64,000 nucleotides of DNA, taken from the NCBI GenBank assembly GCA_015039465.1, contig MU130017.1, positions 1 to 64,000 of the forward strand, read 5' to 3'. The notes under the pieces are model-generated. The model made no database searches and was not told the origin of the DNA. It saw only the letters and a list, made by a program, of their open reading frames with translations. The translations under genes were made by a program, and so were the position numbers. Shown here one piece after another: positions 11,901-21,740 of the stretch. This stretch comes from Phlegmacium glaucopus. Its lineage: Eukaryota; Basidiomycota; Agaricomycetes; Agaricales; Cortinariaceae. Position 1 is the stretch's first letter. The number at the start of each line of letters is the position of its first letter.

Positions 11901-11936
11901 CAGATCCTCAGCGCTATATAAACCACTTCCTTAGCA

Positions 11937-12193
11937 TGGATCGCTTGTTGTTTGGCAAACCTGTGAACGACCGACCGCCCGCCAATCCAAACTGTTTACT
12001 TGAAGGCTCTCAGTCACGATCATCATGCTATGGCGCCTTCTTTCCCAACGCAAATGGGTTCAGCATCGACCAAAGCACATTCACTGCCGTTCATGGAAAT
12101 GTGAATGTCTATTCTAGTGAACAGCCATCTCATGTACGTAACGTCGAGTCGACTACATTGAAGCCAAAAACTGACTACATTCAAGTGGAATAA
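11937..12193 (+). CDS. Short N-terminal fragment resembling mushroom STAND/NLR proteins
   Basis: ATG at 11937 follows a TATATAAA box at 11912, which is why I prefer it to the upstream in-frame starts. The 85-codon frame contains ANGFSIDQSTFTAVHGNVNV. This resembles the FxI..S.F..V.GN motif that opens many basidiomycete NACHT/STAND proteins, just before their nucleotide-binding domain. A GTACGT donor-like site at about 12134 suggests the original gene was spliced onward, but no NACHT or P-loop exon follows here. It is either a truncated gene or the first exon of a short protein. Family assignment rests on this motif alone. Confidence 0.35.
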
Positions 12194-12432
12194 ATACCGA
12201 TGGGTCGACTTCGATCAACAAACACTGCAACTTCTACATACCAGTTCCACGGGCCTTGTGACCATGGAGATGGAACCAATGGCGTTTACCTCGCGTGTTA
12301 AAATGTATCGCATCCATTGGTACAGGGATAGGAAAGATGTTTTTTACAATCATCTGGAGTTTTCCAAATCACTGTGCGTTTTGTTGCCTTGCCATACCAT
12401 TCCAAATTTTCTGACACATACATACTATAAAG

Positions 12433-15400
12433 ACTGGCTCGTCGGCCAGATATATCCCAGTTCCTTGGGACTTCTATTGGCAATGAGGATGGTGACCGGT
12501 TTATTGTCTTGTCTGGTGGTATGAGGGTACTAGCCTTACAAATTTTACATGTCCCTCACATTGTATTTCTACAGGTGGTTTGTCCTTGTCAAACTTCTTT
12601 GTTGGAAGTTGTGCAGACTTGGAAATGATACAGATAGCCTCTGTATGTTCTGATTGATTGAGTTTTTGCCATCCTTTCATGATGTTAACTGACCATTGCT
12701 TAGTTCTTTCAATTAATGGTGAGCACTTGTATATTGATAGATATCTGAAGAAAAAAAACTGGTAAATTGTAGGACATATTCAGCACAGGCCCTTTCACTG
12801 TGTTACACTGGAATTGGTCAAGACTTTGGGACCTACCCATATTTTCTCCAAATTATGGACTTTGTGTGGATGTTATTCTCCTTGAATCATACGGCTTTCT
12901 AGCAAGTTCCAAAAGGGGTAGCAAGAGGGTAATATATAATCACTGAGTAATATAAAACCATGAAATGTGTACTAACTTGTCCATCATAGGGTCCCAATAT
13001 TGTGAATTTCCATGCAAGGCTACAAGATCATATATGTGAGTGATATGGCCTTTAGAAAGGAAGTAGAAAGAGACTCACTATAGTTCATGATATAGTACCT
13101 GGTGATATGGAAAGAATATTGCACTTCAGGCCAGACATGGTCACCTTAAGAGAGACGGTTATAAATAGCCTCAAGGTGGCAATAAAAATAGTCAGTAACT
13201 AAAATAAATTGTGGTTGTCATCCCTAGCTGACAACAATGACCTCTCTGCATTGCAGTTTGTGAGTGCTCTCTCTCCTGGCTGTTGTCCCTAGCTGACAAC
13301 AATGGCCTCTGCATTACAGTTGGTGAATGCTCTCTCTCCTGGCTACTATCTCTACCTGACAACAATGATGTCTCTCTGCATTGCAGAATGTGAGTGCTCT
13401 CTCTCCCGGCTGTTATTCCTAGCTGATAATAATGATGTCTCTCTGCATTCCAGAATGTCAGTGCTCTCTCTCCTGGTTGTCATCCCTAGCTAACAATAAT
13501 GTCATATCTCTGCAGAATGTAAGTCCTCTCTCTCCTGGCTGTCATCCATAGCTAACAACAATGATGTCTCTCTGCATTGCAGTTGGTGAGCTCTCTCCTG
13601 TCAATCATCCCCTAGCTGACAACAACAATGACATTTCTCTGCATTACAGTTGGTGAGTGCTCACTCCCGGCTGTTATACCTAGCTGACAACAATAATGTC
13701 TCTCTGTATTGCAGGATGTGAGTGCTCTCTCTCCTGGTTGTCATCCATAGCTAACAGCAATGATGTCTCTCTGCATTGCAGTTGGTGAGTGCTCTCTCCT
13801 GGCTGTCATCCCTACTCAACAACAATGACATTTCTCTGTATCACAGTTTGTGAGTGCTCTCCTCCTGGCTGTTGTCCCCTAGCTGACAACAATGATGTCT
13901 CTTTGCATTGCAGTTGGTGAGTGCTTTCTCTTCTGGCTATCATCATTAGCTGACAACAATGATGTCTCTCTATATTGCAGTTTGTAAGTGCTCTCTTTCC
14001 TAGCTGTCATCCAAAGCTAATAACAATGACCCCTTTGCAATGCAGTTTGTGAGTGCTCTCTCTCCTGGCTGTCATCCCTAGCTAACAACAATGGCCTCTC
14101 TGCATTTCAGTTGGTGAATGCTGTCTCTCCTGGCTACAATCTCTACCTGACAACCAATGATGTCTCTCTGCATTGCAGGATGTGAGTGCTCTTTCTCCTG
14201 GCTGTCATCCCTAGCTGACAACAATGATGTCTTACTGCATTGCAGAATGTCAGTGCTCTGTTTGCTAGCTGTCATTCCTGGCTGAAAAAAATGATGTCTC
14301 TCTGCATTGTAGGATGTTGTGAGTGCTCTCTCCTCTGGCTGTCATTCATAGCTGACAACAATGATGTCTCTCCACATTGCAGGATGTGAGTCCTCTCTCT
14401 CCTGGCTGTCATTCATAGCTGACAACAATGATATCTCTCTGCATTACAGAATGTGAGTGCTCTCTCTCATGGCTGTCATCCTTAGCTGACAACAATGATG
14501 TTTCTCTACATTGCAGTTAGTGAGTACTTTCTCTCCTGGCTGTCATCCATCGCTGACAATAATGATGTCTCTCTTCATTGTAGAATGTGAGTGCTGTTTT
14601 CTGGCTGTCATCCCTCGCTGATAACAATAACATCTCTCTGAATTGCAGTTTGTAAGTATTTTCTCCTGGCTGTCATCCTTAGCTAACAACAATAATGTCA
14701 CTGTGCATTACAGTTGGTGAGTGCTCTCTCCTCTGGCTGTGATTCCTAGCTGACAACAATGACATATCTCTGCATTGCAGTTGGTGAGTACTCTCTCTCC
14801 TGGCTGTTATCCATGACCATCAACAATGACATCTCTCTGTATTACAGTTTGTAAGTGATCTCTCTTCTGGTTGCTATCCCTAGCTGACAATTATGTCTCT
14901 CTGAATTGCAGTTGGTGAGTGCTTTCTCTTCTGGTTGTCAATCCTAGCTGACAACAATAACACCTCTCTGTATTGCAGTCAGTGAGTGCTTGCTCTCTCT
15001 CTTCTGGCTGTCATCCTTAGCTGACAACAATGATGTCTCTTTATATTGCAGTTTGCAAGTGCTCTCTTTCCTGCCTGTCATCCTTAGCTGACAAGATGAT
15101 CTCTCTCTGAATTGAAGTTTGCAAGTGCTCTCTCTCCTGGCTGTCATCCCAAGCTAACAACAATGATGTCTCTCTGTATCACAGGATGTGAGTGCTCTCT
15201 CTCTTCTAGCTGTCATCCTTAGCTGACAACAATGATGTCTCTCTGCATTGCAGGATGTTAGTCCTCTCTCTCTCTTGGCTGTTATCCTCAGCTGAAAACA
15301 ATGACATCTCTCTGAATTGCAGTTTGTGAGGATCTTATCTCTTGGCTATTTTCCCTATCATCAAGCTACTCCTAAGCTAAATGCTACTAACCAGGCTATC

Positions 15401-16187
15401 AATAACTTAACATCTGGAATTGAAGAACTTAGTGATGGTCAGTTTGTCTGTTGACTTATCTTCCTGGTTTGATCATTATATGGTCATTTAGATGCAATGC
15501 ATGTGGATTCTGTAAGTACTTCCTCCTGGCTGTCATCCCTATCTGACTACAACAACCTCACAGAATGTAGGTTTTCTCTGACCTGGCTATTATCCTTCAC
15601 TGACAACAATATCCTCTTTCCATATCACAGTTTGTCAGTGTTTCTTCCTATTGTTATGTCATGTTTCTATGCTTAATGTTACTAATTAGTCTTCAAACAA
15701 CTCAACATTTAGGATTGAAGGACTTGGTGATGGTGAGTCTGTCTATTTATAATATCTCCATTTTGTGATTATAGTATGTACATTCAGATGCAATGCTTGT
15801 AGATTAGGTGAGTGCTCCCTCCTGACTGATATCTATAGCTGACAGAAATGACTTCTGTCAGCATCATAGAGTGTAAGTATTCTCTCACCTCTGTCATCCT
15901 TAGCTGACAACAATGTCCTCTTTCCACATTACAGTTTGTGAGTGCCTTTCTCTAGCAGTATAGTATCTCTATGTCTATGCTTAATGCCATTAACTAGGCT
16001 TCAGACAACTTAACATCTGAAATGCAAGAACTCAGTGATGGTGGGTGTGTCTATTTATGATATCTTCCTTATGTGATTATGATACTATTATCCAGATGAA
16101 ATGCAAGTAGATTCCTGCTCCAGCAAGGGACTTTTCTTTTCAGAGAGAAGATACAGACCATTATATTCAGAATTCTGCACTATGTGA
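12433..16187 (+). CDS. Unrecognised, extremely intron-dense gene (spliced model by eye)
   Basis: Exons join in frame with good GT..AG signals: 12433-12518, 12575-12642, 12704-12718 (15 nt), 12773-12928, 12990-13035, 13084-13175. They read through phrases such as GNEDGDRFIVLSG, FSPNYGLCVDVILLESYG and HDIVPGDMERILHFRPD. Then come about 32 one-codon exons (13257-15325), then 43-nt and 20-nt exons (15395-15437, 15492-15511), microexons at 15564 and 15631, a second block with a stop TAG at 15805-15807, a third block, and a terminal exon 16096-16187 ending EFCTM-stop. The blocks encode A-x-x-NLTS-x-x-x-ELSDD-x-M-x-VD. The first acceptor (AAG at 12432) and the donor at 13176 (GTGGCA) are weak, and the real 5' end was not found. 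No family is recognised. Continuous phase across five introns argues for a genuine gene, possibly now decaying at block 2. Confidence 0.5.
13176..15325 (+). repeat. Tandem array of about 32 intron-like 67-bp units with 3-nt microexons
   Basis: Each unit is GTGAGTGCTCTC...GCTGACAACAATGATGTC...TTGCAG (about 64 bp) followed by three bases, most often TTG, TTT, AAT or GAT, then the next GTGAGT. Variation follows splice rules. Donors are GTGAGT, GTAAGT, GTCAGT, GTGAAT and twice GCAAGT. Branch-like sites are mostly CTGAC, CTAAC, CTGAT or CTAAT. Acceptors are almost all YAG. First microexon 13257-13259, last 15323-15325. Units 1-3 and 13-15 resemble each other (about 790 bp apart), a sign of higher-order duplication. 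Confidence 0.9.
15395..16187 (+). repeat. Three diverged copies of a 43-nt + 20-nt exon block with intervening microexons
   Basis: Copies begin at 15395, 15690 and 15998. Each has a pyrimidine/CTAAY stretch, AG, a 43-nt exon ending GTGATG, an intron, then a 20-nt exon beginning ATG(C/A)AATGC. Between copies lie two 3-nt microexons (AAT/TTT, then AGT/TTT). Copy 2 carries a stop. The same microexon type fills the array upstream, so the array probably arose by expansion of this spacing unit. Confidence 0.75.
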
Positions 16188-17165: not shown

Positions 17166-17182
17166 CCAACCATGATGATGAG

Positions 17183-17640
17183 AACCCCCCCTCACTGGGG
17201 GGTTATTTTTTTATTGTATAAGACTATGATACAGGCACATGACAATGACAGGGACACACAGCAACAACAGCACACAGCAACAACAACAACCCCCCACAGG
17301 GGGGGTTATTTTTATTTATTAAACTATGGTGTGTCATCATACACAACAACTATGAGACGTGATGACAAGAACCCTCCCTGCAAGGGGGGTTTATTTTGTA
17401 TTTATTAGATTATGTGTTTGCTATGGCAGCGCAATGACAACAACAACAACAACCCCTCACAGGGGGGTTCATTTTTACTACTATGGTACACACAACAGGA
17501 CAGCAACCACAACAATGACAATGACAACCCCCCCCCCCCTCACAGGGGGGTTTATTTTTATTTTTTATTACTATGCTACAACGGGACAATGACAACAACA
17601 ACCCCCTCACAGCCTAGGGGGGGTTTATTTTATTTTTTAT
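17183..17640 (+). repeat. Six GC-hairpin plus T-run units in tandem
   Basis: Units at about 17183, 17289, 17370, 17451, 17526 and 17600 each have AACCCCCC, a short loop (CTCAC or similar), GGGGGGTT, then TTATTTTT(T)ATT. Spacing is 75-105 bp, and the linkers are rich in ACAACAACAA and (C)TATG. The first unit has perfect 8-bp arms. They look like intrinsic terminators but recur as a diverged tandem array, so a minisatellite with a structured core is the safer reading. Confidence 0.85.
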
Positions 17641-18344: not shown

Positions 18345-18929
18345 TGTTACATTCCGTCACACGTTACTCCGGTCCGACTCCGTCGGAGTCGTTTCCAGTA
18401 GTCCGTACTCCGTTCCAGTACTTTCCCTTGTCTCCGACTCTACTCCTCCTACATCCAACTCCGAGACTTCTCCGTATCATTCCGACTCTTCCAACGATAT
18501 CCCAAACCCCTTACCACACCTTTGTTATAACAACTATTCCTTTGTCATCACTTTCCCACTATCAGTCAGCACACCAGCCATGGATTATTCACCCAAGAAT
18601 GCAGGACCTTTTCCGGGAGCAGAACGCAGCACTTATATTTATATTCTATATTTCGGTTGCAATTCCTTTTATATTTAAAGTACTTGAACTTGTATGTTTT
18701 CCCTTAGTTCGAATATCAACCTAGTTTCCTCCTCCTAGTCATCCTCTAAGTTCCCGCAACTTCCGGTTCCATTCTGTTCCATTCTTACTCCGAAATTAGG
18801 ACACAAAGGTTTAGGGTAGCACAGCACACACACTGAGGCTATAGTCCTTTCCCGTTCCGTGGTTCCGTTCCGATCCGGTTTTACTCCGACATTTTACTCC
18901 GACATTTCTCCTTTGTTCTAAACTTAACA
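18345..18929 (+). repeat. 5' LTR
   Basis: Begins TGTTACATTCC and ends AACTTAACA. About 15 differences from the 3' LTR, nearly all transitions and many at CpG, so roughly 97% identity by eye. Direct repeat partner 23753-24337. Confidence 0.93.
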
Positions 18930-21472: not shown

Positions 21473-21740
21473 ACAAGCGAAACGAGGAGCAATGTAATGA
21501 CAAAAGGGCGACGAAGTAACGAAGTGGCGACGCAGTGACGAAGGGGAGATGCAGCGACGGAGGGGAGACGCAGTGATGAAGGGGAGACGCAGTGACGAAG
21601 GGGAGACGCAGTAACGAAGGGGAGACGCAGTGATGAAGAGGGGGACGCAGTGACAAAGGGGCGACGCAGTGACAAAGGGGCGACGCCGTGACAAAGGGGA
21701 GACGCAGTGACAAAGGGGCGACGCAGTGACGAAGTATAGT
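21473..21740 (-). repeat. 19-bp minisatellite
   Basis: About 13 copies of GGGGAGACGCAGTGACGAA, with GGGGCGACGCAGTGACAAA variants. The period is close to 19 bp, so long frames appear on the minus strand in three phases. These are artefacts of the repeat. Confidence 0.9.

Follow-up and report, generated by a model that had tools for sequence, protein, structure and literature searches.

Tandem arrays of putative one-codon exons in genes of the agaric Phlegmacium glaucopus

The gene around the array

The window analysed here is a stretch of 64,000 nucleotides on contig C17 of the 60.5-Mb genome of Phlegmacium (Cortinarius) glaucopus (Cortinariaceae, Agaricales). A gene on its forward strand starts at 11936, proceeds through eight ordinary coding exons and enters a tandem array of intron-like units in phase 0 at 13190; further coding exons follow the array. 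The features of the locus are as follows.

11936..13190, + strand: eight ordinary coding exons, 284 residues, ending in phase 0 (hand model, deposited protein)
11936-12133, 12186-12373, 12433-12518, 12575-12642, + strand: exons 1-4 (hand model)
12704-12718, 12773-12928, 12990-13035, 13096-13190, + strand: exons 5-8 (hand model)
13191..13256, + strand: array intron 1, GTCAGT ... CAG (hand model, protein mapping)
13257..15325, + strand: array of 32 candidate microexons and the 31 introns between them (repeat search, unit alignment, hand model)
15055..15060, + strand: GCAAGT donor, GC-AG class (sequence, unit alignment)
15121..15126, + strand: GCAAGT donor, GC-AG class (sequence, unit alignment)
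15326..15394, + strand: final array intron, with acceptor CCAG ahead of the exon at 15395 (hand model)
15395..15437, + strand: coding exon A1, 43 nt, AINNLTSGIEELSD (hand model)
15492..15511, + strand: coding exon B1, 20 nt, DAMHVDS (hand model)
15564..15566, + strand: 3-nt microexon AAT, separate from the main array (hand model)
15631..15633, + strand: 3-nt microexon TTT, separate from the main array (hand model)
15690..15732, + strand: coding exon A2, 43 nt (hand model)
15788..15807, + strand: coding exon B2, 20 nt, with in-frame TAG (hand model, paralogue alignment)
15870..15872, + strand: 3-nt microexon AGT (hand model)
15935..15937, + strand: 3-nt microexon TTT (hand model)
15998..16040, + strand: coding exon A3, 43 nt (hand model)
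16096..16187, + strand: terminal coding exon, TGA end at 16187 (hand model)

The product of exons 1-8 shows 100% identity over 284 residues with the deposited protein P0001 (BYT27DRAFT_7186348), which maps exactly onto the borders of the hand model, the last border excepted. Downstream of the array the hand model continues in a single frame throughout, but a TAG interrupts B2 of the window copy. The phase-0 coding flanks proposed in a first-pass annotation of this DNA are thereby upheld, the upstream part by the deposited gene model and the downstream part by the hand model. The TAG sits at the end of B2, where paralogue C67 has TAT, and the window protein would terminate at this codon if A2 and B2, 63 nt in sum, were not skipped. 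A module resembling A1 (KIEELSDDEMD) is present in an environmental protein, P0014. A Pfam search with the window protein returned no family, and an AlphaFold model of P0001, built from ten sequences, was unreliable (mean pLDDT 46.5).

Within the array, Tandem Repeats Finder run on the window reports a period of 67 with 31.8 copies and 77% matches at 13212-15330, and 32 microexons were found when the array was read unit by unit, in agreement with the roughly 32 intron-like units first described. The accompanying description of exactly three bases between acceptor and donor applies to 31 microexons and fails for one, GATGTT at 14313-14318, to which the aligner gave 5 nt and which was corrected by eye to 6 nt. 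The acceptor directly before 15395 had been placed correctly, and the start of the array at 13176 has to be moved, exon 8 ending at 13190 and the first donor lying at 13191. Both GCAAGT donors first described were recovered, all remaining donors being GT, and the CTRAY motif expected about 25 bp before the acceptor precedes the 3' splice site in 27/31 window introns at a median distance of 27 nt. The predicted peptide of the window array is FLNNNLLDLFLFFLDNDVDNLNFLLFLSFFDDF, 33 residues, and the predicted codon run, in order, opens with FLNNNLLDLFLFFLDNDV.

The array is unused by the deposited models of the window family. In P0001 the donor at 13191 is ignored and the model terminates within the first array intron, as does P0004, while the sequences of P0003 (paralogue C93b) and P0002 (C93a) are without array residues. 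On C93b the map of P0003 exits exon 8 at a GTCAGT equivalent to that of the window, the remainder of the map being unreliable; scattered pieces of zero to a few bases in the P0003, P0004 and P0006 maps were rejected as mapper artefacts.

The window has other features further downstream. By eye, a G/C-run hairpin of the CCCCCCTCACTGGGGGGTTATTTTT type recurs several times at 17180-17480, after a ACCACAACA repeat, and a minisatellite with 12.4 copies of TGACGAAGGGGAGACGCAG occupies 21498-21734 (Tandem Repeats Finder). About 530 bases at 18345-18875 have 85-90% similarity to sequences close to paralogues C67 and C93a, which occur in either orientation; the segment is possibly a mobile element.

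Splice signals and codons in paralogous and unrelated arrays

Six further copies of the gene are present in the genome, with upstream exons and introns 82-86% identical, and every one of the seven copies has an array of its own, with 19 to 32 units each. We refer to the window array and the six paralogous arrays as the W family (181 units, 174 introns). With borders based on the window, the upstream exons are open in six of the seven copies and broken in C241, and pairwise dN/dS of the flanking exons is 0.31-0.89.

Exon length in the W family is rigid (3 nt in 180/181 units and 6 nt, corrected by eye, in one), and intron length is not: the introns span 49-73 nt, cover all three remainders modulo 3 and differ from the modal 64 in 103/174 cases, so that the fixed 64-bp intron originally proposed describes 71/174 of them. 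All 174 introns end in AG, 172 start with GT and two with GC, and a CTRAY branch motif is found in 155; GT-AG or GC-AG ends together with such a branch are what is expected of U2-type spliceosomal introns. Donor and acceptor are whole in all 174 introns and the branch in 155, which does not correspond to the interrupted splice element of a stwintron. At the sequence level the units resemble those of microexon genes, with putative in-frame coding exons of a few nucleotides.

Variation along the unit follows the splice signals. Over the 181 units, cells off the majority base amount to 2/724 (0.3%) in the core AG/GT, where AG is invariant and GT nearly so, 17/535 (3.2%) in the C, T and A of the branch, 43/719 (6.0%) at donor positions +3 to +6, 987/8831 (11.2%) in the remaining intron and 241/543 (44%) in the exon bases, the difference between AG/GT and the remaining intron being strongly supported (Fisher p 1e-32). 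When the columns of the unit are ordered by variability, exon base two comes first, exon base one third and exon base three sixth, the places in between going to intron columns 30, 29 and 43. The first-pass annotation had suggested comparing substitutions at donor and branch positions with those elsewhere in the unit; the splice positions vary less, which favours function, and the pattern departs from the even variation along the unit expected of a neutral minisatellite.

The same array design is found at dozens of places in the genome, and those examined adjoin GTPase-like exons. Pairs of CAG-NNN-GTGAGT in succession occur 73 times genome-wide, against 0 for the reversed pattern and 0 each when 4, 5 or 6 bases take the place of three; some of the 73 lie in unrelated units (on C24, C28, C52, C106, C171 and C181). 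For CAG-NNN-GTAAGT, 953 such pairs were counted versus 51 for the reversed pattern, and pairs with four bases in both exons number 0 versus 5. Pairs combining three bases with four, or three with six, occur twice each genome-wide, so that selection for multiples of three is unreadable from that comparison alone. A two-unit probe of the commonest unit, of 56 bp, matched 858 times, with 40 of its 49 first-look candidates scored, and among the matches listed this unit lies at approximately 33 or more separate places on at least 18 contigs.

Individual arrays of this kind can be longer than that of the window. The C106 array has 52 exons, all of 3 nt and with 0 stops, and its introns start with GT in 48/51 cases and GC in three, with CTRAY in 47/51, the units having been chosen by a pattern that requires GT/GC-AG ends. 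The C52 array has 35 three-base exons by reading, 0 stops, and one unit without acceptor and exon. Among arrays of the C52 type, the longest parsed is that on C8 (locus L062), with 67 exons, all of 3 nt and one of them TAG, and L065 has 43 exons, all of 3 nt. CTRAY is scarce in these introns (C52 7/32, L062 9/66, L065 4/42), which mostly carry a looser YTNAY. Over seven C52-type loci with 177 parsed exons, 173 exons have 3 nt and one has 6 nt (the aligner gave it 5), and three, one in L063 and two in L068, break the frame with 2 or 4 nt.

Ahead of the C8 and L066 arrays the exons translate into a GTPase-like protein, and those adjoining the C24, C52 and C106 arrays look similar by eye, on motifs that we take to be those of GTPases. 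A deposited relative (P0023) carries the name era-like GTP-binding protein, and another GTPase-like relative (P0021) falls just under the Pfam cut-offs of Arf and MMR_HSR1. In GTPase-like genes the arrays reach 67 single-codon exons.

Stops and signs of decay were seen in several places. The GTPase exons of L062 (1-5101) hold stops and its array is the only stop-bearing one among those parsed; this locus is probably a decayed gene copy. A further TAG exon is present in a C52-type array within C15:392223-392345; like the three frame-breaking exons of L063 and L068, it speaks against a coding role. Decay has reached part of the C24 array (L035/L037), where acceptors are missing and one exon has zero length, AG/GTTAGT, resembling a recursive splice site. 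Separately, C34:74029-74569 holds an unrelated unit, roughly 76 bp long, whose 3-nt exons are CAA, TTT and GGA.

Stop codons are absent from all 268 exons of nine arrays (the seven of the W family, C106 and C52), where phase was taken from flanking exons in the W family only. With the three exon columns combined at random, 8.2 stops would be expected in the W family (180 codons, P about 6e-5), 3.4 in C106 (P 0.013) and 2.8 in C52 (P 0.022); taken singly, five of the seven W-family arrays show no significant depletion. Seven further C52-type loci hold 1 stop in 173 three-base exons where 18.4 would be expected, and none of 5000 permutations gave fewer than 7. Stops in other frames of the concatenated exons occur in 8/9 arrays, including 6/7 of the W family (not C41). 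The 180 three-base exons of the W family use 21 codons, with T, G or A but never C in third position. Phase 0, the lack of stops and the rigid exon length together support a coding role. The predicted peptides of 12 arrays show no helical periodicity (pooled z 0.54).

Proteins of probable relatives and competing readings

Proteins from probable relatives may offer an indirect view of the array position after splicing. Two GTPase-type proteins encoded on short environmental contigs, P0019 (1373 bp) and P0020 (955 bp), are unbroken ORFs leading from the GTPase part to a conserved C-terminal domain, FNLKEA.YC.IVAAIIGHL, with about 42 and 51 extra residues in between (for example EMEMEWVTMMEWWEEEKEEWEEEWEKWEHHDLN); in the P. 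glaucopus locus L066 (C237:125147-128261) the exon for this domain comes after the array. Since the ORFs are unbroken across P. glaucopus intron positions, we read the contigs as cDNA, and both are probably transcripts of relatives. They are the only two of seven GTPase-type proteins running fully through: P0022 has the residue run without the C-terminal domain, and P0021, P0023 and P0024 cover one side of the array position only. In the window family, about 47 residues separate the exon-8 region of P0014 from its A1-like module, P0009 ends in FEFDDELFDLDFFLDDFFFKEDELFDLDFFFG, P0016 contains DDDDDRFRQFRQFLFRDFDDDDRNRLRDD and P0008 has a short mixed tail, the run being absent from the other 13 of 17 proteins compared. 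The most plausible reading of P0009, P0014 and P0016 is that they derive from spliced transcripts of relatives.

A deposited P. glaucopus protein, P0018, contains KIEEEEKYDWEYSLREYYQV, which equals the residues of 20 of the 24 L066 microexons in order (23 one-codon exons and one two-codon exon, two of the 24 added by eye), omitting the two-codon GATGTA and the exons with GTAACT, GC and GTAGGT donors. These residues precede PVIVLWTK instead of following the GTPase part, and the stretch from GTPase to C-terminus is without the run; P0018 is therefore probably a computed chimera and does not prove transcription.

We consider it very likely, from the pattern of constraint and the proteins of probable relatives, that the microexons are genuine, such that the introns are removed one by one and the codons joined in frame and translated. 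The interpretation first put forward for the window is on this sequence evidence largely supported. Introns of about 64 nt would leave singly and the codons would join into a run of about 33 residues. Each intron would presumably be recognised across itself, by its donor together with branch site and acceptor, as a 3-nt exon could hardly hold factors at both sides simultaneously; adjacent introns would then leave in turn, not together. Any number of 3-nt units could be skipped without loss of frame, mixed lengths would be possible, and length variants through skipping are plausible.

As to origin, we suggest that arrays grow by tandem duplication of an intron with its codon, and that the codons then change far faster than the intron. 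Introns that resemble each other tend, in the young C52 array, to flank an identical codon: codon and donor-side intron are coupled (0/1000 permutations as extreme), and the closest 3% of pairs share the codon in 64%. The main competitor is an invasion, in which an introner was inserted between nearly all codons of an older exon, with the same splicing but another origin. It would account for the W family, where the 98 pairs with 3-6% intron difference show a 68% difference over the first two exon positions and more distant pairs about the same (62-71%), so that codons are independent of intron similarity, and where coupling tests fall below 0.05 on 1/14 sides (1/2 sides in C106); a residue run at the array position in probable relatives also fits an older exon. 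Fast codon change after duplication would yield identical uncoupling, however, and the C41 peptide has SPLDS twice. Moreover, an introner should place one intron in many unrelated genes, and among the best candidates scored in the genome searches the W unit is confined to the seven paralogous loci; the C52-type unit lies at dozens of places, a minority of whose genes were covered. Identical codons in adjacent units are at most weakly in excess (pooled 43 vs 36.1 expected, p 0.10). Taking the uncoupled W codons together with the coupled C52 codons, we read the arrays as products of intron-plus-codon duplication followed by fast codon change, and regard invasion as improbable, though it deserves to be kept in view.

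A second competitor denies the splicing of the units altogether: the array would be a minisatellite in one long intron, 13190 joining 15395, with units intron-like by descent. However one defines a tandem repeat, the unit qualifies, and the deposited sequences for C93b and C93a without array residues are what this would produce. Yet a neutral repeat would not keep AG/GT while the three bases between them vary, nor would it be expected to hold that spacing at three in 953 pairs and at four in none, to avoid stops in frame 0, or to appear as a residue run at the array position of environmental ORFs; we judge it very improbable. Recursive splicing, with units as stepping stones and the three bases a non-coding spacer or only some of them kept, is very improbable too: AG-NNN-GT does look like a recursive site (AG-GT) plus spacer, and the C24 array has its zero-length example, but a spacer need not avoid stops and the residue run is retained in environmental ORFs.

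Known systems and significance

Spliceosomal handling of a codon-sized exon has precedents. Exons of 1 nt are described in Arabidopsis APC11 (PMC4674806) and in Fusarium CYP621A, where the fungal spliceosome handles it (PMC12940212), and a 3-bp exon in Drosophila homothorax (PMC7392893); the smallest alternatively spliced exon known earlier was 3 nt according to PMC4674806, and Trichoderma Xlr2 has a regulated microexon (PMC11121469). With 1-nt and 3-nt exons on record, splicing of the arrays would demand nothing that the machinery is known to be unable to do. These cases share with the arrays very short exons (1-3 nt in APC11, CYP621A and homothorax) and an ordinary spliceosome. In the parts of these papers available they concern one microexon per gene, whereas P. 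glaucopus has 20 to 67 in a row, with the intron repeated; the new part is the row of microexons, not the single tiny exon.

Internal exons of aphid bicycle and megacycle genes are about 5-50 bp long. In the available portions of PMC9168663 these genes resemble the arrays in having many microexons, more than 100 in one gene, and a divergent protein, and differ in that the internal exons are longer and nearly all in phase 2, whereas those of P. glaucopus are tandem, of one codon and in phase 0. Introner-like elements, as the excerpts of PMC4457414 and PMC9860276 present them, likewise form families of similar introns in one genome, in fungi too; they insert into many genes, whereas the P. glaucopus units form tandem arrays. 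A known case of intron gain by tandem duplication shares the splice signals carried by the duplication, but in the part of its description available it concerns one new intron in one gene, as opposed to arrays of tens of units at dozens of places. Stwintrons, in the sections of PMC8469720 at hand, are also complex introns that proliferated in fungi; unlike the units of the array they are nested, with an interrupted splice element and without a coding exon between. Arrays of one-codon exons did not appear among the matches listed in a search of open-licence PMC full texts.

It is likely that the arrays represent a new gene architecture, in which one codon per exon is repeated at dozens of loci to give runs of 20 to 67 residues, grown by duplication, with fast codon turnover and many lengths. 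To our knowledge, this would be the most extreme splitting of genes. As short exons are often missed by gene prediction and read mapping, such segments may be overlooked elsewhere.

With neighbouring splice sites only three bases from each other, dozens of times over, the arrays would put to the test which sites the spliceosome pairs and in which order. If the codons are indeed joined one by one, the arrays would offer naturally occurring substrates of intron definition alone, as exon definition could hardly work on them, and the proteins concerned would be lengthened one residue at a time and diversified by codon turnover and in-frame skipping.
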